A DNA stretch of 30,268 nucleotides from a virus, in the IMG/VR virus record IMGVR_UViG_3300018424_000137, positions 1 to 30,268 of that record; one strand, 5' to 3'. Under the pieces are notes generated by a model that was not told the origin of the DNA, did no database searches, and worked only from the letters and a program-made list of their open reading frames with translations. Of this stretch, positions 2,322 through 22,000 are shown piece after piece (positions within the stretch are counted from its first letter, which is position 1; each line of letters opens with the position of its first letter). The translations under genes and the position numbers were made by a program.

Positions 2322-3563
2322 TCAGTATACTTCCCAAAAAGTATCACTCGCAGATGCTTTTAATAGTTTGTTCATTTTTCTATCTGTTATTCTTACAGCT
2401 GATTGAATATATTTTGAGTTTAGTCTTCTCATGGATTCGACCTTCTCATTAATGCCAATAATTATTTGATGACTATGATCAGATGCTGGTGGGCTTGATC
2501 CTGTTACACAATCGTCTTGATCATCAAAAGGAGTAGCTGTGCCTGAATAATCAAATGTGTCATTTCCATCTGGAGTAGTTTTCTTTATATAGTTTAAACT
2601 TTTTTCTATCTTGTCCCATACTCGTCTGGCACTCGTAGAAGTTCCAGCTCCATGATCTGAAGTAATTCCTGCATCTTCCTCTTGCTTAAGAACAGTGGAT
2701 GCGATATCGTAAAGAAGTGATCCCATACCTTTTCTTTGAAATTTTTTGGCCACAGCAGAAAATGAAACATCATATGTCATTGGAATGCAAGGCTTTTCAT
2801 TACTTGAAAGTTTATTTACAGTTACAAAACCCACCATCTCAGGTAAATTTATATTGTCTATAACAGGTGTGGCGCCATTAAAACCAACCGGTTTATAGAG
2901 ATAGAAAGAATATTCTTTTCCGCCTCTTTTCTTTTCAACATAAAGAGCAACATCTGATAAGCTGGATGTATATTCTACTTCTTTTCTTTTTCGGTGATCA
3001 ATATTACCTGCAGTTATTGTTGAAAGAAATTCGCGCCATCCTTCCATAATTAAATTCATACCATTAGAATTTAAGCTTTCACCTAGCGGATAACTTTTTT
3101 CTCTGTTAAACTTTTGTCGTTTTTTTCTTTGACTAGGAGTTTCTGGTTTTCCTTTGCTAGTATAACCCATTGGCGCGCCGACACCTGGGACACCACCGGC
3201 TGACATTTCATCAATCATATCATCTAAGCTTTCCAAATCATCGATATTATTTAATCTCTTTTCTGCTTGTCTATTTATCTTATTTGCCATTCTTCGATAA
3301 TCGTCTTTTGGATCTTCGTTTAAGTTATATAATGTTTCAAGTAGACAGAACTTTCCGTTTCTATGAACTCTATTTTCCAATATTTCTTCTTCATCGTCTT
3401 CGAAAACTAAATCTTCTTTACTGTAGGCTAATCTTTGTTGACTTCTGGAAAAATTAGAGTCTGCATCAGACCTAGGTCCTGTCGTTAATCCCGACTTATG
3501 GGATCCAAAAGAAACACCATCAGGGCGAAATGCGCCTATTCCTAATTCATTTACTTTTTTCAT
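2322..3563 (-). CDS. GNAT-like acetyltransferase-fold protein, possible internal virion protein
   Basis: This is a 413-residue protein. The N-terminal ~160 residues are polar and low-complexity, with an acidic patch at 55-62 and a Lys/Arg-rich stretch at 146-156. A LIMEGWREFL segment follows at 171-180. Residues about 200-325 look like a GNAT fold: a strand EMVGFVTVNKL (242-252), then the acetyl-CoA-binding motif A QRKGMG (276-281) with its helix, then GITSD and ARRVWDKIE. A TATPFDDQDDC motif (342-352) follows, and the tail is basic. The last half shares the same motif series with the protein at 25463-26401, so the two look paralogous. The start is supported by GAGGATAGT before the ATG. Substrate and activity are unknown, and the fold may be used structurally. 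Position between baseplate genes and gp32 suggests late expression. Confidence 0.75.
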   Translation of the reverse strand: MKKVNELGIGAFRPDGVSFGSHKSGLTTGPRSDADSNFSRSQQRLAYSKEDLVFEDDEEEILENRVHRNGKFCLLETLYNLNEDPKDDYRRMANKINRQAEKRLNNIDDLESLDDMIDEMSAGGVPGVGAPMGYTSKGKPETPSQRKKRQKFNREKSYPLGESLNSNGMNLIMEGWREFLSTITAGNIDHRKRKEVEYTSSLSDVALYVEKKRGGKEYSFYLYKPVGFNGATPVIDNINLPEMVGFVTVNKLSSNEKPCIPMTYDVSFSAVAKKFQRKGMGSLLYDIASTVLKQEEDAGITSDHGAGTSTSARRVWDKIEKSLNYIKKTTPDGNDTFDYSGTATPFDDQDDCVTGSSPPASDHSHQIIIGINEKVESMRRLNSKYIQSAVRITDRKMNKLLKASASDTFWEVY

Positions 3564-4692: not shown

Positions 4693-7600
4693 TTATTTTT
4701 CATTTATGTCAGTTATTGCGTTTGTTAATTTACTTCTAAATGAAGATATTGCACCCATATTTGAAGGTACTAATTCTAAATCAGTGTTAAATTCTCCTGC
4801 AGATATATTATGATTGACAGATTTAACTGTGTATATGTTATCTAAACTAGTATTTGTGCCAAAATCTATAAATATCGTTTGACCTCTAGACATCATAGGC
4901 ATGCCGGCTAAATTTAAAGAAACAGTATTCGGAAAAACAACCACCTCTTCAAATTTACTGTCGTATGCATTACCATCTTGACCAGACTTAAGATCTCCAT
5001 AAGCTTCAATAGCTAATACATTTGAAAGCTCACCAGAAGTATTTGAACTAACAGAAATTGACTTTACTGTCGAAGCAGCTGACCCATATATAACTGTTGG
5101 ATAGTTTCTTTTTACAAATTCTTTCGCATCAAAAAAAGTCATTTTATTAATAACTTCATTAGATAACTCCGGATTACCTGTTATGAGCGTACGAGAATTA
5201 CCGTCTGTTAAAGTTGATAATAAAGTTAAATCAGAAGGCGAAGCTACTGCTTCCTCATCGTACACATGTATTCTTAGAATTGTTTTGTTATTTTTAATAC
5301 CTGTACCATTAATCTTAGCAAGAGATCCTCCTTGAATTAAGTTTTCGCTTAATCCTGCCAAAAATCCAAGCTCCTCGCCTTGATCAACATCAATTACCGG
5401 TACAGATTCAAACAACATAGTAAAGTTAGGCCTAACAAATTTAGGTTCACTAACTATTTCTTTTGACAGTCCGTCATTTCTGTAAAGATCGATACAGACC
5501 TGTTCAATTTCATCTCTTACTTTTTCTCTTTCTTTTGCAAGGTATTTTGAATAATTTTCAGCAATTAGTTTTTTTGCTTCGTTACTTATCCCTATTCCAT
5601 CATAAAAATCTTTTCTTGACTGATCTGATGAAATAGCATCTCTAAACTTTTGTTTAAGTTGATTATCGTCGCCGTAGCACCTGTTAAGATAGTTATTTAT
5701 TTCTTTTTCTGTATCACTATTACCTTCGCCTCTAATTAAACCTTTATTTTTAATAAGATCCAACCCAGCAAAAAACTTTTGATCATCTGTTTTTTTATCT
5801 TCTAAATTTTTTAACGTGGACAGCAAATTTGAAAAACCATAAACCGGTAAGCTTCTATCATTAAGAATTTTTCTTTCTATCATTGAAAAGAATGACTTAA
5901 CAGAAATAGCTGTGTTTTTATTAACTTGTTCAACAATATCGTCTTCCAGTCTGTTTAACGGTATCGGCAAACTGGCTGTTGTATGTACTCTGCCACCACC
6001 GGCGTGGTGATTCAAAGGATAGAATATCATTTGTACTTCATCGTAAAGGCATGAACTAGCCATAGGATACCCTACGTAGTTCATTAATATTTTGCCTAAT
6101 GTGGCTATGCTTTCATCTCCGCTATTACGTGAAGCCGCCTTAAGGTCTTTTTGCATCTGTTCTTCAGTAACAGCATAGCTCTGACCGGGCCCTACGCCCG
6201 TACTTAATCCTGCAAAACCAACATCTGCTAGTCTATGTAAACTGTATGTGTAAGGATCTAATTTATCGCTTCTTAAACCTTGTAGCTTTCCAAAAACTGA
6301 TGCTAATAAAGTTTCTTTATTTTCTTTTTTTCTGCTGGCAGCTTTTAGTGCATTTAAAACAGCGTTGTACTCTTCGTCGTTAGTTTTTTCCTGTAACTCT
6401 ATTATATTTGATTGGTCATTAGGATCAGTAGTTGTACTAAAAGATTCGTTAACCTGATCAACTATTGATTGCTGTTTTAAGACTTCACCTATTAGCCCAA
6501 TGGCACGATCTTTGTCTTTATTGATAACATTATAAATTGCACTCCATTCATCCCAAGTCATGACACTTTCTAATTGCCTGGCGCTTCTTGCGTTAACTTT
6601 AATTTTCTGCCTTATTTCTGCAACTTGTTTTTTATCTTGGTTTTTGTCAAAGTTGATATCTTTTGATGCTTTAACTATTAAATCAGCTATAGAAGAAACA
6701 GGCACCATTGGCCCAGCACCGCAATGTACTCTAGAGTTTTCTCTAAATCCTTGTGCAACTAATTTAATAGTAATATCAACCGCACCGCCATCTGAAAATT
6801 TATAATCCGACCCTATAACTTGGTATACATGTATGTCTCTTAAAGCATTTAAATATTGCCCTATCGGATTTCCTGAATTAATACCTCCATCCGGGTGCGA
6901 CCACCCAAACTCTATTTGAATCTTTGTGGTTGCAAATCTGTCTGAAGCTACTAGAGGAGCGATATCCTTAAGACGACTTCTATCGTGCAAAGTTAATCCT
7001 AATGTACCACTTTTTGAAGCAAGTAAACCTGTACCTTTTCCTGTAATTGATACACTAAATGATTTAAGCGACATAAAAGGTGCAATTGGTTCATAAACTT
7101 GATTATTGTTATTTTGATTTGAAAATCCGTTTTTAATTTTTAACGGCTCTTCACTGTTTATGTACACAGAATAGTCTGTTGATTTTGATACATTGTTAAT
7201 ATTTGCATTTGCCATTGTTTGCGGCGATGTAAATATGTCCATAAAGCTAGTTTTTGTATTTTGATTTAACTCTTCTTTAAAAATATCCTCAGCATTTAAA
7301 CTATCTGAACCTATTCCGCCCATAGAAGAAAAACTGCCATCACTTTCCTGCTTGACAAATCGCATAAAAGAAGGCATGCTCATTTCATTAATTCCTGGCT
7401 TAAACTCTTCTGATATAATTTTAATATCTAAATAAGGGACACATCTTGTCAGCTCTAATGTAGGAATTCCGCCTAAGAATATAGGCAAATGAGAAGATTG
7501 TCTAGCGTTAATTCCTATATTGGGTGTGCGTACGACGTAAGAATTAAGACTAGGCGTCACTCTAGATGGATCAGAAGTATCAAAAATACCTAAGTCAGCG

Positions 7601-8244
7601 TTTATTGAATCCTCAGAAGATCTTGTAGCAAGTATTTCTTTTACAGGATTACCGTTAGAATCTTTAATTGGTTTGTTTTCACTGTCTAATTTTTCTTTTC
7701 TGTTAATTTCAGTGATGTTAACGTAGGGTAGTATTTGAGTAACTGATATTTTTGTCGGACTGTCGTCACTTTCGTTTGCTTTGTATTTTAAAATTGCCGA
7801 GGAAAAATTCTTAGGCTTGTTTGATGTATCGTCCGCGTCTGTTGAAAATCCTACTTCTAAAATGCTATTTTCAATTATACCTTCTTCATTAGTCTGAAAA
7901 GTTGCAACAGGTGAGAGAATATTAATATATTCGTGCATTTTATCAAAATCATATACGTTTCTTAATTGTGACGCTCGTGAAAGATCTTTAATAAAATAAG
8001 TTCCTGTCGTTCTATCAAATATTTTAGGTGCCAATTCTTTAACAAACTTTTCTTTTTGCTCATCTATAACCGCATTATTAACTGAAGCTATATATTGTTG
8101 TCTAAAGTCTTGGTCCAAATCTTCTAAAAAAAGAAGTAAGTCGTTCTTAGAAAGACCTAAGAGATAACCCTCAAACTCTTTTATTAGCTGAGTAAAATTT
8201 TCGTACTTAACATTATAATTGGATATTTCACTATATTTACTCAA
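4693..8244 (-). CDS. Large baseplate hub-like structural protein
   Basis: This 1,183-residue protein is probably a central baseplate or hub component. The C-terminal part has the pattern of gp27/gpD-type hub proteins: a GMPMMSRGQTIFIDFG strand pair, then YTVKSVNHNISAGEFNTDL near the end. A segment at about 395-500 contains a Gly/Ser-rich strand region and the motif FGWSHP (446-451). The middle (about 550-1000) is largely helical and charged. The best start is TTG at 8244, which overlaps the TGA of the LysM gene (TTGA) and has GGAG seven bases upstream; the next Met in frame is about 100 codons away. That overlap implies translational coupling with the LysM protein, a usual partner of hub proteins. 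Identification rests on C-terminal pattern and gene order. Confidence 0.7.
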   Translation of the reverse strand: MSKYSEISNYNVKYENFTQLIKEFEGYLLGLSKNDLLLFLEDLDQDFRQQYIASVNNAVIDEQKEKFVKELAPKIFDRTTGTYFIKDLSRASQLRNVYDFDKMHEYINILSPVATFQTNEEGIIENSILEVGFSTDADDTSNKPKNFSSAILKYKANESDDSPTKISVTQILPYVNITEINRKEKLDSENKPIKDSNGNPVKEILATRSSEDSINADLGIFDTSDPSRVTPSLNSYVVRTPNIGINARQSSHLPIFLGGIPTLELTRCVPYLDIKIISEEFKPGINEMSMPSFMRFVKQESDGSFSSMGGIGSDSLNAEDIFKEELNQNTKTSFMDIFTSPQTMANANINNVSKSTDYSVYINSEEPLKIKNGFSNQNNNNQVYEPIAPFMSLKSFSVSITGKGTGLLASKSGTLGLTLHDRSRLKDIAPLVASDRFATTKIQIEFGWSHPDGGINSGNPIGQYLNALRDIHVYQVIGSDYKFSDGGAVDITIKLVAQGFRENSRVHCGAGPMVPVSSIADLIVKASKDINFDKNQDKKQVAEIRQKIKVNARSARQLESVMTWDEWSAIYNVINKDKDRAIGLIGEVLKQQSIVDQVNESFSTTTDPNDQSNIIELQEKTNDEEYNAVLNALKAASRKKENKETLLASVFGKLQGLRSDKLDPYTYSLHRLADVGFAGLSTGVGPGQSYAVTEEQMQKDLKAASRNSGDESIATLGKILMNYVGYPMASSCLYDEVQMIFYPLNHHAGGGRVHTTASLPIPLNRLEDDIVEQVNKNTAISVKSFFSMIERKILNDRSLPVYGFSNLLSTLKNLEDKKTDDQKFFAGLDLIKNKGLIRGEGNSDTEKEINNYLNRCYGDDNQLKQKFRDAISSDQSRKDFYDGIGISNEAKKLIAENYSKYLAKEREKVRDEIEQVCIDLYRNDGLSKEIVSEPKFVRPNFTMLFESVPVIDVDQGEELGFLAGLSENLIQGGSLAKINGTGIKNNKTILRIHVYDEEAVASPSDLTLLSTLTDGNSRTLITGNPELSNEVINKMTFFDAKEFVKRNYPTVIYGSAASTVKSISVSSNTSGELSNVLAIEAYGDLKSGQDGNAYDSKFEEVVVFPNTVSLNLAGMPMMSRGQTIFIDFGTNTSLDNIYTVKSVNHNISAGEFNTDLELVPSNMGAISSFRSKLTNAITDINEK

Positions 8245-12267: not shown

Positions 12268-14178
12268 TTAACCTCCTCCAACCTTTGCTAAGGACTGTCC
12301 TGCTGCATTTGTAATTTCGTTATTTAATATATATTGAGCCTGTATTTGTCCTAATTTTTCTCCGTCTAAATTAATTGAAATATTTGTACCTGAATTTTTA
12401 AGCATATCTATTAAGTTACCCACAGCAATTGTTTGCTGATCCATTGCTGCTGTTGAATTTTGCAAGTCTGCCATGAGAGGAGTATTACCGGTCTGAATAC
12501 TTTCTGATATTTGATTTGTATCATATTGATGTTGGACTTCAATTTCTTTTTCAACCTTTCCGTCTAGAACATTTTGCATAACATCAACAACACTAGTAGA
12601 TATATCACCAGCAGCTTGTGTCATTCCTGAAATAAGACCTGCTACTACTAATTGTGGTTTTTGCACTGTCTTTTCAAAAGCTGCAGCTGCATCATCAAAA
12701 TTTTGCAATTGTTCTTTGCTAAATTCTACTTTTTGAAGCTCAGTCGTAATTGCTTGTGCTGCAAGTGCTGTTCTAGAATATTGCTCGACTGAATAGTCTG
12801 CAGCAGCCTTTGCTTTACTTTTCATCATTTCTTCTGCAGATCTAGCAGCACCAGCCGTAGTATCAGCAAAATTTTCCATCGCAGCAGTCATACCGTCAAT
12901 AGAAGCAGCGCTATCAGTTGCTGATTTCATTTCTTCTTGTGTAACTGATAGCTCTTCACCTCTCATAAAGGTCCGCATTTGTTCAATAGACAAGCCAAAT
13001 TGATCTGCCAGCATTCTTTGACGTGCCTTGGACATGTTTTCTACATCTAATCCAGCGTCAAGAATTTCTTCCCTCATTCTAAAAAGAAACTCTTCTTGAT
13101 CTTCAGAGGCAAGATACGTCATTTCCATCGCATCCATTTGAATTCCAAACATTGCAGAAAGATCACCCATTTTACTTGCTGCATCATCAAAATTCATAAA
13201 TCCTTTTGTTAGTGTTTCAAAAGTTTGAAAATCCATTCCTAGTTCTGAAATTGCAGTTGCAATCCTTCCTGCAGATTCAACGCCTATGTCACCAAACGTA
13301 TGTGTTGCTTTAATAACTTCTATAGTTCTATTTTTAATTTGCTCCATACTTGCGCTGGACGAATTACCTAGTGTCGTTGCAACTGCAGCTACTTTTTCCA
13401 GGGTATTTGATGTTGCTTCACCGGTAAAAGCATATTCTCTTTGCAATAGTTGTGCAGCATCTGCAGAATCTACACGCAATGATTTCATAAGTATAATGTT
13501 GTTATTCATTGCTTCTTTTGACATATTGCTCAGTACTTTTGTATTTTTATTACCTATATCTTCCAACAATTCCTTAAAAGAATTGCTAATGTCTTCAACT
13601 TTTTCAAAAAGCATGTCAAATGCGTTACCGGTATTGCCTAATGCGTCTGTAAATTCTATATTTGCTTCGCCCATTCCGGCTTGTGCCATATTAACTTCAG
13701 ACATTAAATCTCTAGTTTTTTGGGCAAACTCGCTTAAAGGTTTTCCGGAAGCTAAAAGATTGCTAGTAATACCACCTACATTTTCATTAAGAACTTTATA
13801 GTCATTTGTTAAAGTTCTGGCATGATTAGCATTTTCTTGATTATTTTCAATAACAGCTTTTGCCCCTTCTGCCAAAAAAGTAAAAGCGGCACGTGCAGAT
13901 CTTCCTAAATCATTATTTGCAACACCTACACCTGCTGTCGCAGCTGCCAACCCTAAAGCAATTTTCGATGCAGTCTCCATGTTTTTGTTGTTTTCTTTTT
14001 GGGCCGCATCTAGCTTCATTTTGTTGTTAATTGCTTCTTGCTCTTGCTTATTTAACTCTTCACCGGCTGCTAGCTTTTCTCGGGCAGCTTTAAGTGTTTC
14101 AGCCTGAATATCAGATTCAGACCTACCGCCTGTCATATCAGCAACTACATCTCCTGTATTATTACCTGGTGTTGCCAT
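12268..14178 (-). CDS. Tail tape-measure-like protein
   Basis: This 636-residue protein is mostly helical and rich in Ala, Met, Gln and Glu. It has one hydrophobic segment at 73-87 (IALGLAAATAGVGVA) and a C-terminal NLDGEKLGQI element, which is common at the ends of phage tape-measure proteins. T4 gp29, the tape measure, is 590 residues, so the size fits. It directly follows the tail-tube gene and the gp26-like/second-frame pair, which is the canonical place of the tape measure after its chaperones. It would set tail length and line the tube. The start has AGGAG 6 bases before the ATG. The Ala-rich protein at 1-1320 is an alternative or additional elongated tail protein. Confidence 0.72.
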   Translation of the reverse strand: MATPGNNTGDVVADMTGGRSESDIQAETLKAAREKLAAGEELNKQEQEAINNKMKLDAAQKENNKNMETASKIALGLAAATAGVGVANNDLGRSARAAFTFLAEGAKAVIENNQENANHARTLTNDYKVLNENVGGITSNLLASGKPLSEFAQKTRDLMSEVNMAQAGMGEANIEFTDALGNTGNAFDMLFEKVEDISNSFKELLEDIGNKNTKVLSNMSKEAMNNNIILMKSLRVDSADAAQLLQREYAFTGEATSNTLEKVAAVATTLGNSSSASMEQIKNRTIEVIKATHTFGDIGVESAGRIATAISELGMDFQTFETLTKGFMNFDDAASKMGDLSAMFGIQMDAMEMTYLASEDQEEFLFRMREEILDAGLDVENMSKARQRMLADQFGLSIEQMRTFMRGEELSVTQEEMKSATDSAASIDGMTAAMENFADTTAGAARSAEEMMKSKAKAAADYSVEQYSRTALAAQAITTELQKVEFSKEQLQNFDDAAAAFEKTVQKPQLVVAGLISGMTQAAGDISTSVVDVMQNVLDGKVEKEIEVQHQYDTNQISESIQTGNTPLMADLQNSTAAMDQQTIAVGNLIDMLKNSGTNISINLDGEKLGQIQAQYILNNEITNAAGQSLAKVGGG

Positions 14179-14209: not shown

Positions 14210-14401
14210 TTAAGTAAATTTACTATTCACTTGTTTTTCAAATTCAGAAAAGCTTCGTCTATCGTCATTTCTATTATTTGTTTTGTCTTTATTATATCTA
14301 TCGTTCTGATCTTTAAAATGTTTGACAATCCTGTCTATAAACCAACGTCTATATCTTATTGGTAGTTGCTTCACCTCTAAATATGACATATTAAGGTGCA
14401 T
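14210..14401 (-). CDS. Second-frame tail chaperone segment (likely made by frameshift from the gp26-like gene)
   Basis: From its first ATG this frame gives 63 residues, including LPIRYRRWFIDRIVKHF, a pattern typical of the C-terminal extension of phage tail assembly chaperones, and a hydrophilic Asn/Asp/Lys/Arg-rich tail. The same frame stays open upstream to 14455 and encodes protein-like sequence there (WRENILEEFFLLQ) that fits the family pattern. No Shine-Dalgarno stands at normal distance from the ATG at 14401; the nearest purine patch is about 15 bases away. The segment is therefore probably translated mainly as an 81-residue extension of the gp26-like protein after a +1 (or -2) shift. 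Independent initiation at 14401 or 14389 is the alternative. Confidence 0.65.
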   Translation of the reverse strand: MHLNMSYLEVKQLPIRYRRWFIDRIVKHFKDQNDRYNKDKTNNRNDDRRSFSEFEKQVNSKFT

Positions 14402-14441
14402 CTGGAGCAGAAAAAACTCTTCTAAAATATTTTCGCGCCAG

Positions 14442-14462
14442 TTATGTACTGGGCCAAAAAAA
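14442..14462 (-). other. Candidate programmed +1/-2 ribosomal frameshift site
   Basis: On the minus strand the upstream gene ends GAA TTT TTT TGG CCC AGT ACA TAA, with a run of seven T at 14462-14456 and the stop four codons past the TTT TTT pair. Skipping one T (or slipping back two) enters the frame of the RRWFIDRI segment, giving a fusion of about 346-347 residues instead of 269. Position after the tube gene and before the tape measure matches the tail G/GT chaperone slot. A one-base homopolymer sequencing error would look the same. Confidence 0.6.
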
Positions 14463-15251
14463 TTCTGTGGTTATTGGGATACCAAATCCATTATTTGCTC
14501 TGCAAGAAGAACAATCATATTTCCAATTCATGTCGATGCCCGGCTCTAGTTTTTTTACATAAAGTCTTAACGATCTAGAGTCTTTGGCCGGCATATTTTT
14601 AATAAAATGATGAATTTTATTTTTATCATTAACACCGTCTATTGATACTATCATGCTTTCTAAAAAGGAAGTGACACTATTTTCTCTTACGATACCTGCG
14701 TTTTGTAGTCTTTCTCTTTTAACTTCTTCTTCTCTTTCGTCGTTTGCTGTCAAAAATTTAAATAAAACTTTTTTGCCTGTTACTGGAAGACTATAAGCGA
14801 ATAGATTTTTGCCTTGTTCAACTGGTTCAGCTTCTAGACGCTTAATACCTAATTCACTTAGTTTTACATTGACATCATTTTTTCGACCGCAATTTTGACA
14901 TATATGAGTAACTGGATAATCAGATCCGTATCCTGTAATTCTCATTGAAACCATTAAGGCATTTCTATCACCAGCAATCATATTCATAACGTCAACGCTG
15001 TCATCTGTTATGCAAGACTGAATCGCTCTAGATATTGATGTTCCTTCTCTAATATAAGCTGCACTAGACAATATATCTTCTTGCAAGGCAGTCATTGCTT
15101 TAATCTGTATCGTTTCTCTATTATAAATTGTCGAATCAGGGTTATATATTACGCCTCTTGACGGTAAAGGAACAGTTTCAACCGGGACGTCCCATCCAAA
15201 AACATCTTTAGACACATTTTGTCTAGGAATTACAGAATCATTATTGCTCAT
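14442..15251 (-). CDS. 26: gp26/T4_baseplate-family protein, tail assembly chaperone-like
   Basis: This 269-residue protein has the hallmarks of the T4 gp26-type baseplate family: a PLPSRGVIYNP segment at 28-38, a helical IKAMTALQEDILSS region at about 50-63, a DRNALMVSMRITGYGSDYP block at 95-113, and two Cys pairs (118/121 and 247/250) that could bind zinc. T4 assigns gp26 to the baseplate hub. Here the gene sits between tail tube and tape measure, where other phages encode the tail chaperone with a frameshifted extension, and a frameshift appears to occur at its 3' end. The start is clear: GGAGG 9 bases before the ATG. A terminator separates it from the tube gene, so its expression depends on partial readthrough or an unseen promoter. 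Confidence 0.82.
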   Translation of the reverse strand: MSNNDSVIPRQNVSKDVFGWDVPVETVPLPSRGVIYNPDSTIYNRETIQIKAMTALQEDILSSAAYIREGTSISRAIQSCITDDSVDVMNMIAGDRNALMVSMRITGYGSDYPVTHICQNCGRKNDVNVKLSELGIKRLEAEPVEQGKNLFAYSLPVTGKKVLFKFLTANDEREEEVKRERLQNAGIVRENSVTSFLESMIVSIDGVNDKNKIHHFIKNMPAKDSRSLRLYVKKLEPGIDMNWKYDCSSCRANNGFGIPITTEFFWPST

Positions 15252-15334: not shown

Positions 15335-15826
15335 TTAGAACTGCAATACACAATTATCAACTTCTAATGTCAGATCAATAGATAACATATTTGAACTACT
15401 GTAAGATAAAGTACCAAATGTTGCCTGTGTAATGAATGCACCTTTAATATCCCACAATTCAATAACTGTACCAACAGGATCTAAAAGCTTAAGCTGTAGA
15501 TCACGTTTGTAAAAATCAGCATATCCAGCACGACCAGAAACTGATTCATAGTGTGTTCTAATCCATTCCATTACTTGCTGTGCGCCTGAAGGAGCAATTG
15601 GATCATGAAGCTTCACACTAATACTACTCCATTTAATTTTACCGTTTGATACGTTCCTGTAGCTGTTAATAAACGGAATTTCTTGTTTGTCAATAGTTAC
15701 GTCTGGTCTTTTGGTGTCAGAAATAAGAAATGAGTCAATTCCTTCAATTGCCAACACCCATCTATAATCTCTTTTTGGTTCAAACTTATTTGGAAGTAAA
15801 TCCGTTACTGAAAGCGTTTCTGCCAT
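15335..15826 (-). CDS. 19: Tail tube protein (gp19-like)
   Basis: This 163-residue protein matches T4 gp19 in size (163 residues) and layout. It begins with LPNKFEPKRDYRWVLAIEG, continues with a long beta-hairpin region (PDVTIDKQEIPFINSYRNV), and has an internal LHDPIAPSGAQQVMEWI helix typical of tail tube subunits. The C-terminal part is strand-rich. Rings of this protein build the inner tube through which DNA passes. It follows the sheath genes, as in T4 (18, 19). The Shine-Dalgarno AGGAG stands 7 bases before the ATG. The terminator right after the gene suggests it ends the most highly expressed tail transcript. Confidence 0.92.
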   Translation of the reverse strand: MAETLSVTDLLPNKFEPKRDYRWVLAIEGIDSFLISDTKRPDVTIDKQEIPFINSYRNVSNGKIKWSSISVKLHDPIAPSGAQQVMEWIRTHYESVSGRAGYADFYKRDLQLKLLDPVGTVIELWDIKGAFITQATFGTLSYSSSNMLSIDLTLEVDNCVLQF

Positions 15827-15861: not shown

Positions 15862-18828
15862 CTAAATATTTGATCCAGCATTTGTAACAACAAAATCAAG
15901 TGCAACAAATTCAACAGATCTGGTAGGTTGTAAGAATATTTTACCTCTTAGGGTATTGTTTTCAACGTCTGCTTGGGTTGTAGTTGTAGTATCAATAACA
16001 ACTTTATAGCGATCAACACCACTTTGTTCTTGGACTCTTTGTAAGATCGGATTAACTAATGATGAAAATCTTTCTAGTGTCTCTTCTCTGTTAGGTTCAA
16101 ATAGTAAAGTATTTGCAATATTTCTAACTTTTCTTCTAATATCAATTAAAAGTCTTCTAACATTAATTCTATCCAAGGCAGAGTTTTCCTGCAAAAGTGT
16201 TTTTTGACCCCAAATAGTCACCCCGGCATTTGTAAATTCTGTAATTGGATTAATGTTAGACTCATACAAGTCATCTAAGTTTGTTCTATTTAATCTAACA
16301 GAAGCCATTTCAACTGTATTTAATCCGCCTCTTGCATAACCTGCAGGTGCATACCACGGATGTGAAACAGCATCGTTAAATGCATAAGCTCCTAAAACTG
16401 CAACTGAAGGAGGCACTTGCACCAATGTAGAAGTTGTCGGATCTTCAACAACAACATCTGGGAAATAAGAAGCTGCAAATGAAGTATTAAGCCCTCTATT
16501 TTTAAAATCAACGACAGTATTTGCCACATGTGGTTTTTGCGCTGATGACGTAATATAGTTGTTTAATTGATCTCTTTCTTCAATGTCCATGATGTACATC
16601 GCATCAAATCTATCTTCGACTTTTTGAATTGCGTAATCTGTCACAGAAGAGTGTCTTATACCGGGAATTGCCAATAATTGTATATCAACATCTGTTTTTG
16701 AGGCCATCAAATCAATAGCTTTTCTATATGCAGCAACTGTATTGTTCAAAACTCCGGCATTGTTTTCTTCATTAGCAATTTCTCTTCTAATTGCAATTGT
16801 TGATAATTTTGATTTTTCTTCATCAAATATATTAACACCGTCAAATCCACCTTGCATTAGAAATGTAAATTTAGCAAATTTTGTATTTGCAACTTTACCT
16901 AAGTCATCAATAGAAAAAGCTCTTGTTTTGTTTGTGGCGTTAGGTGTAATATTACCGCCTCTGACATATGATGCACTTAACCAATATTCCGGGTCGGCTA
17001 ACGTATCTGATCCTGTTCTTACAAGTACATTTTCTAATGTAAATTTACTATTATTAAATCTGTCACTGTCCAAAACAGTTCCATTGATGTCAGCAGTACC
17101 GGCATTATTACCAACTGAAAAGCTAATTGTGTCAGTTCTATGTGTAGGAAAATGTTTAACAAATGACTCAAAAGAATTATCAAAAAGACCTTGAAGATTA
17201 GGTTGGGTCGCATCAGTTTTTCTATTTGTCTGTACACCCCAATATAATCTTTGATCTGATCTTTTTCTGATACCTGTGCCTAATGCTATATTTTCTCTAT
17301 ACGGCATAGGAGGCTCAACAATTCTTTTGTGCAAACTAGCTGCTGTAAAAACAGCAGTATTATCATCAGAAGTCATTAATGATCCACTAGTTACAATATG
17401 ATTATGTCCTCTAAATCCAAAAGGTAAAAGCAATGGATCTATCGATGCATCTTTAACTTCTTGAGATATTTCAACTCTAATATATCTAGATTGAACTGGG
17501 TGTACACCTTCAACAACGATTTTTTGTGCACTAGCAGCAACATCAAAATTGTATCTTATGTTTTGATCACCAATTATTCTTCCAATATATCTATCTGAAG
17601 TAGGATCTAAACTTAATCCTCTAAAAGATTCTAAAACAATCGGTTCTTCATCAGTATCTCTAAAGTCTCTAACTACTAAGTCAAATGATCCATAAAGATC
17701 AATTGTTGATGATGATTTTCTAATATTTTCAATTGATATTTTGTATCTATTAGATATTCCTGACCCGTCTGACAAAGCGTGAATTTTAAATAGATTTTTA
17801 GCAGAAGTTCCGCCTTGTGATATCACAAATGGTGAAGATGCATGTGTAAATCTATCTGTAAAAGACTCATAATCAATTTCTGTTGAACTTGATGCTGCTC
17901 CTCGTCCAAAAGAAGAAGTCAATAAAAACGCAATATCTTCTTTTGTTTTTTCGCTGTCTGAATAAACACCTGCAACAATTACACCCGATCCGGTAACGCT
18001 AGCTAAGTCTGGATATATATCATAGTTTGCATATAAATAATGGCCTTCTTCCTCAATTCTGTAAGGATTTGTATTAAATATATTTGCAAAATAGTTTGGA
18101 GCAGTCATATCAAATGAAGCTGTTATAAAAGTCTTTTTTCCAGGGTCAGAATTTGAATAACCATTCATTAACATTACAAATTCTTGTGATCCTAAATTTA
18201 AAGACCCAGTGATGTGACCTTGTTTTGATGTGGTTGCTGTATTAGACTTACTTGGTGCACCTGTTGCTGCAGTATTATTCCCACTCAGATGAAGTATTAC
18301 TCCACTAGGAGCTAACAATACACCTCTTAAAATAGGAACCGCACTAGTTGATGTCTGTATGCCTGCGTCACTAAAAATAGTACTCCCAGCAGATTCTGAC
18401 ATAAAACATCCAAGAAAATAAGTTCGTCCTTCAACGTCTCCACTGCCGTTATTTGCATAAGCATTATTACCAATTTGACCGTTGCTTTGTATTATCCTGT
18501 TGCCTACTGTAAAACCTGCATAAGTCACGTTACCACTATTGTCTTTTTGTTTACCGTTACCTACACCTAAAACTCTCATATAAGTAACAGCTTGTGCATT
18601 ACTAAGCCATTGACTTACAGCTATTGGTCCGAACTTTTCCCCATCACTAGCACCGAATGTCGAAACAAAGTCACTAAAGTTTGCGAATGTTAATGGAACA
18701 TATGCCGGCCCTTCAAGTGAAGTTCCAATAATCCCAGCAGGCGTTCCAACTGGACCAAGTCTAGAAGGTTGTGACAAGTCTATTTCTCTTGTACTTACTC
18801 CTGCCGATTTAAAAGTTAATTCTGCCAT
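15862..18828 (-). CDS. 18: Tail sheath protein, second copy (gp18-like)
   Basis: This 988-residue protein is a contractile sheath protein. The N-terminus carries the usual opening (FKSAGVSTREIDLS, PAGIIGTSLEGPAYVPL, AVTYMRVLG). The C-terminal ~210 residues carry the conserved sheath core: PWYAPAGYARGG, QENSALDRINVRRLLIDI, then LRGKIFLQPTRSVEFVALDF. Between them lies a large insertion of several hundred residues compared with T4 gp18 (659 residues), probably surface domains. It aligns along its length with the next upstream gene, so the two are tandem duplicates that have diverged strongly. Start: GGAG 8 bases before the ATG. It lies nearest the tube gene. Confidence 0.92.
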   Translation of the reverse strand: MAELTFKSAGVSTREIDLSQPSRLGPVGTPAGIIGTSLEGPAYVPLTFANFSDFVSTFGASDGEKFGPIAVSQWLSNAQAVTYMRVLGVGNGKQKDNSGNVTYAGFTVGNRIIQSNGQIGNNAYANNGSGDVEGRTYFLGCFMSESAGSTIFSDAGIQTSTSAVPILRGVLLAPSGVILHLSGNNTAATGAPSKSNTATTSKQGHITGSLNLGSQEFVMLMNGYSNSDPGKKTFITASFDMTAPNYFANIFNTNPYRIEEEGHYLYANYDIYPDLASVTGSGVIVAGVYSDSEKTKEDIAFLLTSSFGRGAASSSTEIDYESFTDRFTHASSPFVISQGGTSAKNLFKIHALSDGSGISNRYKISIENIRKSSSTIDLYGSFDLVVRDFRDTDEEPIVLESFRGLSLDPTSDRYIGRIIGDQNIRYNFDVAASAQKIVVEGVHPVQSRYIRVEISQEVKDASIDPLLLPFGFRGHNHIVTSGSLMTSDDNTAVFTAASLHKRIVEPPMPYRENIALGTGIRKRSDQRLYWGVQTNRKTDATQPNLQGLFDNSFESFVKHFPTHRTDTISFSVGNNAGTADINGTVLDSDRFNNSKFTLENVLVRTGSDTLADPEYWLSASYVRGGNITPNATNKTRAFSIDDLGKVANTKFAKFTFLMQGGFDGVNIFDEEKSKLSTIAIRREIANEENNAGVLNNTVAAYRKAIDLMASKTDVDIQLLAIPGIRHSSVTDYAIQKVEDRFDAMYIMDIEERDQLNNYITSSAQKPHVANTVVDFKNRGLNTSFAASYFPDVVVEDPTTSTLVQVPPSVAVLGAYAFNDAVSHPWYAPAGYARGGLNTVEMASVRLNRTNLDDLYESNINPITEFTNAGVTIWGQKTLLQENSALDRINVRRLLIDIRRKVRNIANTLLFEPNREETLERFSSLVNPILQRVQEQSGVDRYKVVIDTTTTTQADVENNTLRGKIFLQPTRSVEFVALDFVVTNAGSNI

Positions 18829-18855: not shown

Positions 18856-21800
18856 TTATTCAAAACTGACGCCTGAATTTGTAATTATAAAGTCAATTGC
18901 AATAAACTCAATAGCTCTAGTAGGAACAATAACAATTCTTCCGTTAAGTCTATTTTGTTCAATATCTAGCGCTGTATTATTAGTTGAATCCATAATCACT
19001 TTAAATTGATCAATTCCTTGATTTGCCTGAATTGCGCCTAAAGAAGGCGTCACTTGTGCAATAAATCTTGCACGAGTTTGCGGCGTATTGTTTTCAAAAA
19101 TTAAGCTATTAGCAACATCACCTACGATTCTTTTAACTTCCAATAACAATCTCCTTACATTGACTCTGTCAAGAGCAGATCGATCTTGCTGTAAAGTTTT
19201 TTGACCAAAAATTACAAATCCTCCGTTAGGGAAGTTGGCAATAGGATTGATTCTTGACTCATATAAAATATTTCTATCTTCTGAGTTTAATCTTACTCTA
19301 GTATTTAAAACATTATTTAATGAACCTCTATTAAATCCAGCAGGAGCAAACCAAGGATAAGAAATTGAATCATTGTAACCTAAAGATTTAAGAGCAGCAA
19401 TTGATGAGGGCGCCTCTTGTGCTGTTCTATTAATATCATCATTAAAGACAACATCAGGAAAATAAGTTGCTACATAATTATTATCTATACCTCTACCTTC
19501 AAACTCATCGACAGTTTTTTGAACATCTGGTAAAGTTACTGAATCATGAATTCTATTTCCGTTTGAATCATAACTAGGTATATCCATTAAATATATTGCT
19601 TGACTATAGTCTCTTGTTAATTCTGATATGTGATCAGTTACAAAAGGTTCTTTAATTCCAGGTACTGCAATTACATTTACACGTGAAACAAATGGATCTG
19701 TTATTATCTTAGCTGCTTCTCTATAAGAATTAATAATATTGTTGTCATTTCCACTACCCGGACTAGCATCAACATGAAGATTTTCGTATGTATAAGTACC
19801 GTTAGCAGCATTTCCAAGTGCATCCATGGAGCTAGCTCGATCATTCATTAAACGATTATCTTTGTCTAAGATGTTTAATCCATCAAATCCACCAAAAAGT
19901 ATGTTTGTAAATTTAGCGTAGTCTGTAAACCTATTAAAATATTTTGTTTGTCTGGCAGCTGCCAATGTTGCAAAAGTTATTCTTTGACCACTACTTAAAG
20001 TATCAGGGATTGTATAGTTTTTAGTCTCAATTATACCGTTTCTTAAGTATGCACTATCAATCATATGATCGTCAGCAGTCCCTGTTATTTCAGTTGCAAT
20101 ACTTGCTTCTATAGTTGATGTTAAACTAATTGTATTAGGCAATGCCACTTTTGCTAATGTAAATTTATTATTATTGAATATATCAGCACCAGAACCGGTT
20201 GTTAAAGTATCTAGTTTTTCAATTCCTAAAAATTTAGAATAAGAATCAATTAAAGTATTTCTTCCTGAAGACGCATTAGACTTAAGTACTGCACTTGATA
20301 TCGATCCGGTATTTGCTAATTTTTCTGATTTAATACCCCAGAAATATCTTTTATCAGCAATTTCCAAAGCTCCTTTTTGACCAACAAAAGAAGGAGAAGA
20401 ATTAACCGCGCCTCTTGTTGCCTTAAATCTAAAAGGAACAGGAGGAAGAATCGACCCAGAAAGAGATTCACCTGCAACTGCTGCCGACCCTTCCACTAAA
20501 GTAAGTCTTTGATTAAGGGATCCGCCTGTCAAGACTGAATCATCATCAGTAAAATTATCAGAGGTTTTAAGCAAAGGAAGACCTCTGAAACCGAATGGTA
20601 ACGTTTCTTCCGGAATTTGTCTATTTTCTACTTGATCATTCATAACAATTCTTACATAATTTGAACGATTAGGTCTTTTACCATCAACATTAATTCTTCT
20701 TTCTGATCTAGTTGTTGCATTAAAATTATAGTATACTTTTAAATCACCAATTTTATTTGCAACATAATTTTCATCACGAGGATCAAGAGTACATAAATTA
20801 TATTGTTCTAAAACTTTCATATCTAAGTCAGTGTCTTTGTAGTCTCTAACTAAAACTGTAAATGTTCCAAAATTATTTTTTGGATTTGTTGATCTACGTA
20901 GATTGGCAATTGATATCTTTACTCTTCTATTACTTACATCACCGTCATCCAAACTTTCAAAATGAAATAAATCATATTCTTTTGTACCGAAAGGCTGACT
21001 TATAAATGAAGTAGACTTTGCATTTGTATATCTTGTATCAAATCGCCCAAAGAGATCTCTATAAACTACAGAGCTAGCTCCATTTGTCGCTGCACTTCCA
21101 GATGCTATTCCAACTGTTCCTTTAGATCCATTATATGTAACACGAGCTAATTCATCCTCGACAGGAAAGTCAGCATATAATAAATGCTGTTTTTCGTGAA
21201 ATAAATCTGGATTTGTATTTAGAAACTTTCCTATGTAAAATTTACTGTTTGGATTTAATGATGCTGTGTATATTTTTACACCTGGATTAGTTTCATCATT
21301 GCCGTAAGCACTACCTAGTGCGCTGGATAAGACTAGCTTAAAAATACCGTCATCAGCGTTACCAGAGTAATTTTTAATTTTTGCCAAATCATCAGCAGTT
21401 CCACCCGAATAAAAGCTATCATGATCTAATATTTGAAGTCTTGAACCCGTGGCTGTAAATATCATTGCCCTTACTAGTCTAATCGATGTAGCTGTGTTAA
21501 AAGAGTCACTATCTGTAAACAAAGGATATCCTTCATTTTCGTGCTCGTTGACATCGTGAGAAGCAACAATAAACTGTACAGATCCTGCATGTCTATTTTC
21601 ATTTGTTACTGGGTCTGGCGATTGTGAAGATGCCGGCGTTCCTTTTATAACAAATCCAGCGTTCCTAACTGTACCTTGACTTAGTGTAGTTTCAATATGA
21701 GAACTTTCAGTTGCAGCACCAGCTCCTAAAACTCTAACATATGTTACTGCTGTTCTACTTTTAAGCCATTCCCTAACCGCGAATGGTCCATAAAAATCTT

Positions 21801-21984
21801 TTTTAAGTGTTCCAAACTTTCTTTCAAAATCAACAAATGATCCTAAAGTGACAGGAACAAAAGCCGGACCTAAATTTGCTGTACCAATTACACCAGCAGG
21901 TACACCTTCAATTTCAATTGTTCTCTGAGTTAAATCTACCTCTCTTTCGAAAAAACCCGGAGATCTAAATGTTTGCTCTGCCAT
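18856..21984 (-). CDS. 18: Tail sheath protein, first copy (gp18-like)
   Basis: This 1,042-residue sheath protein has the same N-terminal motifs (FRSPGFFEREVDLTQ, PAGVIGTANLGPAFVPV, AVTYVRVLG) and C-terminal core (PWFAPAGFNRGSL, QDRSALDRVNVRRLLLEV, LNGRIVIVPTRAIEFIAIDF) as the copy at 15862-18828. The middle is larger than in T4 gp18 and differs most between the copies. ATG at 21984 is chosen over the TTG at 21987, because AGGAG stands 6-7 bases before it and the TTG is part of the spacer. Either copy could be the main sheath; the other may decorate, form a distinct tail segment or substitute under some conditions. That both are intact argues for selection on both. Confidence 0.92.
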   Translation of the reverse strand: MAEQTFRSPGFFEREVDLTQRTIEIEGVPAGVIGTANLGPAFVPVTLGSFVDFERKFGTLKKDFYGPFAVREWLKSRTAVTYVRVLGAGAATESSHIETTLSQGTVRNAGFVIKGTPASSQSPDPVTNENRHAGSVQFIVASHDVNEHENEGYPLFTDSDSFNTATSIRLVRAMIFTATGSRLQILDHDSFYSGGTADDLAKIKNYSGNADDGIFKLVLSSALGSAYGNDETNPGVKIYTASLNPNSKFYIGKFLNTNPDLFHEKQHLLYADFPVEDELARVTYNGSKGTVGIASGSAATNGASSVVYRDLFGRFDTRYTNAKSTSFISQPFGTKEYDLFHFESLDDGDVSNRRVKISIANLRRSTNPKNNFGTFTVLVRDYKDTDLDMKVLEQYNLCTLDPRDENYVANKIGDLKVYYNFNATTRSERRINVDGKRPNRSNYVRIVMNDQVENRQIPEETLPFGFRGLPLLKTSDNFTDDDSVLTGGSLNQRLTLVEGSAAVAGESLSGSILPPVPFRFKATRGAVNSSPSFVGQKGALEIADKRYFWGIKSEKLANTGSISSAVLKSNASSGRNTLIDSYSKFLGIEKLDTLTTGSGADIFNNNKFTLAKVALPNTISLTSTIEASIATEITGTADDHMIDSAYLRNGIIETKNYTIPDTLSSGQRITFATLAAARQTKYFNRFTDYAKFTNILFGGFDGLNILDKDNRLMNDRASSMDALGNAANGTYTYENLHVDASPGSGNDNNIINSYREAAKIITDPFVSRVNVIAVPGIKEPFVTDHISELTRDYSQAIYLMDIPSYDSNGNRIHDSVTLPDVQKTVDEFEGRGIDNNYVATYFPDVVFNDDINRTAQEAPSSIAALKSLGYNDSISYPWFAPAGFNRGSLNNVLNTRVRLNSEDRNILYESRINPIANFPNGGFVIFGQKTLQQDRSALDRVNVRRLLLEVKRIVGDVANSLIFENNTPQTRARFIAQVTPSLGAIQANQGIDQFKVIMDSTNNTALDIEQNRLNGRIVIVPTRAIEFIAIDFIITNSGVSFE

Positions 21985-22000
21985 CAATTTCTCCTAATTG

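Follow-up and report, generated by a model that had tools for sequence, protein, structure and literature searches.

Introduction

In the lambda gpG/gpGT pair and other frameshifted tail chaperones, a gene lying between the tail tube and tape-measure genes yields a short form and a frameshift-extended long form, with the frame-0 stop just past the slip site and a shift that is usually -1 on an X XXY YYZ heptamer. In prfB, the gene of release factor 2, the slip occurs on CUU U with a stop codon in the A site and a Shine-Dalgarno (SD) sequence just upstream. Vladimirov, Gautam and Davidson are said to have identified the tail assembly chaperones of T4-like phages in 2022 (Virology 566:9-15), reportedly under a title that suggests a mechanism other than frameshifting.

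Atkins and co-workers described G-T frameshifting as widely conserved in long-tailed phages 'except T4', and called a +1 shift in the haloarchaeal HSTV-2 'very likely' (PMC5009743). To judge from titles and reviews, the published view is that T4-like phages are without a frameshift at this gene. A passage of PMC12846349 that cites Vladimirov 2022 mentions poly-T -1 signals in the TAC-N genes of T4-like phages as known, so that -1 sites may already be known. No report of a +1 site was found in the literature searched, in which Vladimirov 2022 was represented by its title and by the papers citing it.

Here we analysed a virus record of 30,268 bases (the window, meaning the whole stretch), in which a programmed +1 shift of the ribosome on a gp26-like gene very probably yields two tail assembly chaperones of the G/GT type, both belonging to the gp26/gp51 family. 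At the level of sequence, the frame architecture, the conserved site and selection on the +1 frame can be regarded as established, as can the homology of the G part to T4 gp26/gp51; that of the extension, traced by way of a cyanophage domain, is probable.

Gene order and reading frames in the window

The relevant genes lie on the minus strand in the order two sheath-like genes, gp19-like tube gene, gp26-like gene and a gene encoding 636 aa, with the following features.

15335..15826, minus strand: tail tube protein (gp19-like), directly upstream of the gp26-like gene; phrog_4542 E 8.7e-25, PF06841 E 1.7e-5
14442..15251, minus strand: gp26-like gene, short form (G / TAC-N), 269 aa, with zinc-ribbon cysteines and the C-terminus EFFWPST*
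14452..14462, minus strand: shift site TTT TTT T GG CC; frame 0 reads TTT TTT TGG CCC and the +1 frame continues GGC CCA
14442..14444, minus strand: frame-0 stop TAA, four codons beyond the second TTT
14210..14455, minus strand: +1-frame extension (T domain), 81 codons plus stop (14210-14212), helical in the model
12268..14178, minus strand: probable tape-measure protein, 636 aa, directly downstream of the gp26-like gene, assigned by position and size

The 636-aa gene gave no family match. A tape measure is annotated in the equivalent slot of Flavobacterium phage immuto and Listeria phage LIS04, and the order of tube, gp26-like and tape-measure genes in the window is the order annotated in both, placing the gp26-like gene, like lambda G/GT, between tail tube and tape measure. 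The earlier note had proposed a programmed frameshift of G/GT-like architecture in this slot, and gene order and relatives support this. Elsewhere in the window, the tandem minus-strand genes at 15862-18828 and 18856-21987 each encode about 1000 aa and resemble one another at both termini; tail-sheath domains are present in the first of the two, and the second looks, by eye, like a sheath paralogue. The large proteins encoded at 4693-8244 and 2322-3563 (minus strand) are without any PHROG match.

The gp26-like protein matched PF12322 (T4_baseplate) with E 1.7e-14 and 54.5 bits against a curated cut-off of 24.5, and phrog_150 (baseplate hub) with E 2.6e-17. Its AlphaFold model had a pLDDT of 88, and the best viral Foldseek matches were the SP-15 baseplate hub subunit and T4-like hub proteins. 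A fold search of the PDB with the G part returned nothing significant; the best-probability match among those listed was the HK97 tail chaperone 2ob9 (probability 0.20, E 3.8), which is below significance. The G part of the window differs from the described chaperones in belonging to the PF12322 zinc-ribbon family without a significant match to a solved tail chaperone.

From 14465 downward the minus strand reads GAA TTT TTT TGG CCC AGT ACA TAA, in which the T7 run occupies 14462-14456, TGG 14456-14454 and TAA 14444-14442, confirming the claim that the gene stops four codons past TTT TTT. Translation from 14455 to 14210 likewise confirmed the 81 open codons previously described in the +1 frame, which begins GPVHNWRENILEEFFLLQMHLNMSYLEVKQLPIRYRRWFIDRIVK and comprises 81 residues. 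From the T run onward this frame has the look of protein, as described earlier for the part before the first ATG. That ATG is codon 19 (14401), and the bases preceding it, TTTTTTCTGCTCCAG, contain no SD core, in agreement with the view that the frame has no usable SD sequence. The window is without an in-frame X XXY YYZ heptamer combined with an open -1 frame.

Frame and selection among relatives

A profile scan gave 594 confirmed relatives from IMG/VR, the best 80 of which were kept, together with 15 from bacterial or archaeal assemblies, which in the main are probably misbinned phage. The retained relatives, two further scans and phage records together provided a classified set of 174 distinct proteins. 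The second frame was +1 in 155 of these and -1 in 19; nine of the 155 also had the -1 frame open, and in all four of the nine that were inspected the T motif was in +1. The frame arrangement of the gp26-like gene is real, and it is the rule in the clade and not peculiar to the phage of the window.

Each of the 95 TGG loci in the first set keeps its +1 frame open for 54 codons or more beyond the stop (median 69), as against a median of 12 codons for the -1 frame of the same loci, and 79 of 7100 composition shuffles reached 54 open codons; the openness of the +1 frame exceeds chance. Comparison of homologous loci showed the slippery run and the nearby stop to be conserved, the stop lying 2-10 codons from TGG. 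Conservation with a variable third position follows frame 0 upstream and the +1 frame downstream, switching exactly at the shift site, and substitutions in the T region between near pairs numbered 368, 190 and 1073 at the first, second and third +1 codon positions, respectively. As in G/GT-type genes, a second frame is open across the frame-0 stop and under selection.

The same junction was found in divergent relatives at 28-51% protein identity. In four of them (L003-L006, 46-49% protein identity) TTT TTT TGG CC is followed by a stop 0-2 codons after the CC codon, and the +1 frame stays open for 71-83 codons past that stop. Named phages carry +1 junctions as well, AGC TTT CTT TGG CCT in immuto (L007) and AAC TTT TTT TGG CCT in Microcystis phage Mel-JY01 (L008), and candidate +1 sites of the UUU-C or CC-CGA type are present in Bacillus SP-15 (L013), Listeria LIS04, Streptococcus GXN1, and Streptomyces LuckySocke and BRock (L018). 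A second IMG/VR contig (L002, metagenome 3300017967), whose sample is possibly non-independent, is identical to the window over 4637 bases with 0 mismatches or gaps, the T7 run included. In a separate observation, a gp26-like gene with the same junction occurs near both ends (L102 and L103) of the 305,838-base contig NHDW01000006.1, which was binned as Methylococcaceae; misbinning of a large phage genome, circular or terminally redundant, is the probable explanation.

The shift site

The site of the 146 +1 loci with TGG has the pattern TTY/TTT, TTT/CTT, TGG and is near-invariant over 12 bases including wobble positions, with 1.69-2.00 bits at each of positions -6 to +5 around TGG, silent third positions included. 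Most of the 146 read TTT TTT TGG CCT, six read TTT CTT TGG and six TTC TTT TGG; three further +1 loci have TTT TTT TTC or TTT TTT TAC and not TGG. The Pro codon CCT accounts for 93% at the site versus 35% elsewhere in the same genes, where TTC makes up 19% of Phe codons. The P-site codon is TTT in 140 of the TGG loci and CTT in 6, and the next base is T in all 146, which means that a +1 slip would bring the P-site tRNA onto UUU, where it can pair again. Lambda-type chaperones, with their usual -1 shift on X XXY YYZ, differ in this respect from the clade of the window, in which the predicted shift is +1 on UUU UUU UGG CC.

No conserved stimulatory SD sequence was found near the shift site among the relatives, the GGAG-like cores seen in some loci being about 30 bases upstream, which is too far. 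RNA structure at the site did not exceed that of control regions (mean z about -0.8 versus -0.7); in the window the 50 bases that follow the site gave a folding z of -2.75, a feature not common to the relatives. With no stimulatory element found, the shift could be inefficient, or its efficiency could depend only on the site and the A-site UGG, and re-pairing together with the Trp codon in the A site are the likely drivers of the slip. The CTT TGG variants would share with prfB the re-pairing of the P-site tRNA from CUU to UUU, whereas here the A site holds the sense codon UGG and a conserved SD sequence is missing.

The T domain and its relation to T4 gp51

The T domain matched DUF6760 in 18 of 31 relatives (best E 3e-5), and members matched phrog_634, 'baseplate hub assembly catalyst'; the papers examined yielded no mention of this Pfam DUF. 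In cyanophages and their allies (L016, L115-L120), gp26 is followed by T TTT TTY and then by T in the -1 frame, often annotated as a separate 'gp51'. The G and T domains of cyanophages (Kyanoviridae and related) are homologous to those of the window, with T in the -1 frame after T TTT TTY, whereas in the clade of the window T is in +1. Comparison by hhalign linked the +1 T domain to the cyanophage -1-frame 'gp51' (probability 93, E 4e-7) and the cyanophage T domain to the C-terminus of T4-type gp51 (probability 97, E 3e-11). The direct match of +1 T to gp51 was weak (probability 10, E 0.003), and an early T alignment gave no hhalign match to the tail of T4 gp51 taken as a single sequence. With the cyanophage T domain as the intermediate, the T extension is probably homologous to the gp51 C-terminus.

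T4 gp26 and T4 gp51 are both members of PF12322, and gp51 is longer at the C-terminus by 48 residues; together with the homology of T to the gp51 tail, this suggests that gp26 is the counterpart of the short form and gp51 that of the long one. The T4 proteins are of the same family as the window gene, but T4 encodes them in two divergently placed paralogous genes, whereas the clade of the window has one gene with a predicted +1 shift.

A fused form was found in a bacterial locus (L213:859-1623, genome G204), where a continuous 255-aa protein right after a gp19-type tube gene matches both PF12322 (2.5e-9) and DUF6760 (1.5e-6) over their cut-offs; the fusion ties DUF6760 to the T domain. Another bacterial locus (L212, genome G078, reverse complement 1115-1665) has a gp19-like tube gene and, in the G slot by position, a 124-aa ORF overlapped in the -1 frame by a DUF6760 ORF (E 8e-15); five consecutive G occur where the two overlap, and a further frameshift is possible there.

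A branch with the opposite direction

Fourteen loci (L065, L084, L122-L124, L126, L127, L129, L130, L132 and L202-L205) read AAATTTCTTYTGGCCYTCCCGRTAR: TTC TTY replaces TTT TTT, and T lies in -1, the +1 frame being closed. The heptamer A AAT TTC, of the X XXY YYZ form, is present in 14 of 14, and this sub-clade and the cyanophages are where an in-frame heptamer was found together with an open -1 frame. The ten members sampled form one clade (SH-aLRT 99) nested inside +1 rows, in a quick tree that was built without the last 14 residues and is unsure at its deep long branches; the tree requires 3 direction changes overall and 18 site changes. We read this as a probable natural switch in which one branch went from +1 to -1, gaining A AAT TTC and losing the +1 site. 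In the jumbo phages Stenotrophomonas RAS14 (L014) and Xanthomonas XacN1 (L015), the junction is GCT/AGT TTT TTT ATY and the -1 frame is open for 68 codons past the stop, with no fusion annotated.

Proposed mechanism and alternatives

From this pattern we infer how the slip occurs, how efficient it is and that the products act as chaperones. One gene read in two frames would give two proteins. The majority of ribosomes would terminate after the short gp26-like protein, and a minority would slip +1 while UGG (Trp) occupies the A site and peptidyl-tRNA-Phe is on the last UUU (or tRNA-Leu on CUU). This P-site tRNA would re-pair on the overlapping UUU, GGC would enter the A site, and translation would continue for about 80 codons to give a long form with a helical C-terminal domain. 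As in lambda gpG/gpGT, the short form would then coat the tape measure and the long form would recruit tube subunits.

The same frame could be reached, with one extra residue, by a programmed -2 shift as in phage Mu, and the TTT TTT T of the window permits UUU re-pairing in either direction. In the six TTC TTT TGG relatives, however, a -2 shift would place tRNA-Phe on UCU with a middle-base mismatch, and in the six TTT CTT TGG relatives a +1 shift matches the CUU-U slip known from prfB. Because a mechanism shared by all site variants fits only +1, we consider -2 improbable; the frame change put forward in the earlier note as +1 or -2 stands, with +1 favoured and -2 disfavoured by the TTC TTT TGG relatives. 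These interrupted sites also bear on transcriptional slippage, a known alternative to frameshifting (PMC5009743), by which mRNAs lacking one U at the T7 run would be read as one continuous gene. Most sites do contain T7, but polymerase slippage needs a homopolymer, and TTT CTT TGG and TTC TTT TGG, with runs of at most three and at most four T, keep the +1 frame relation, so that we give this explanation a similarly small chance. Seven T is, moreover, short for RNA polymerase slippage.

A programmed +1 shift is also to be preferred to an arrangement of two separate genes, the downstream one starting at an internal ATG, either from a ribosome binding site of its own or through coupled re-initiation. 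A short downstream ORF with an internal start is indeed annotated in immuto, SP-15 and cyanophages. Yet the first start codon of the T frame (median codon 31) is preceded by residues of that frame that are conserved; 6 of 146 T frames are without any start codon; an SD core precedes the first start codon in just 6 of the 146; and L213 and T4 gp51 are examples of the fused form. A separate start for T is accordingly unlikely, and we hold the two-gene reading to be very improbable. Least probable of all, to the point of being negligible, is a homopolymer sequencing error or recent frameshift mutation in a gene that is truly continuous. An isolated T7 run in a contig assembled from a metagenome is where such errors typically arise, but a frame break of the same kind occurs at the same place in more than 100 loci from many assemblies, with equivalent +1 junctions in the named genomes of immuto, Mel-JY01, SP-15 and BRock, and sequencing error was ruled out by these relatives and phage genomes. 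Relatives with six T, or with separate genes carrying their own ribosome binding sites, were looked for among the phages of the clade and were not encountered.

Discussion

The site in the window is strongly conserved and is most probably one of programmed +1 ribosomal frameshifting. The device is of a familiar type, but the variant and its setting seem new against the literature searched. With more reserve, we think it somewhat likelier than the contrary that frameshifting, not gene duplication, is the common route to two forms of the T4-type chaperone family, and that its direction is evolvable. UUU UUU UGG CC with +1 would be the rule in the clade of the window, one branch of which would have passed to -1 when it lost the +1 site and acquired A AAU UUC; U UUU UUY would serve in cyanophages, the gene pair 26/51 would stand in for the shift in T4, and some bacterial contractile systems would keep the fused long form only.

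For annotation, a short ORF labelled 'gp51' or hypothetical that follows a gp26-like gene is likely to be a C-terminal half and not a gene. The hundreds of natural variants of one +1 site, together with a clade in which the direction has flipped, would make the sequence rules of bacterial +1 shifting directly testable. If the interpretation is true, the 'except T4' gap would be closed, the T4-type chaperone being made by frameshifting in the relatives of T4, mostly in the rarer +1 direction.
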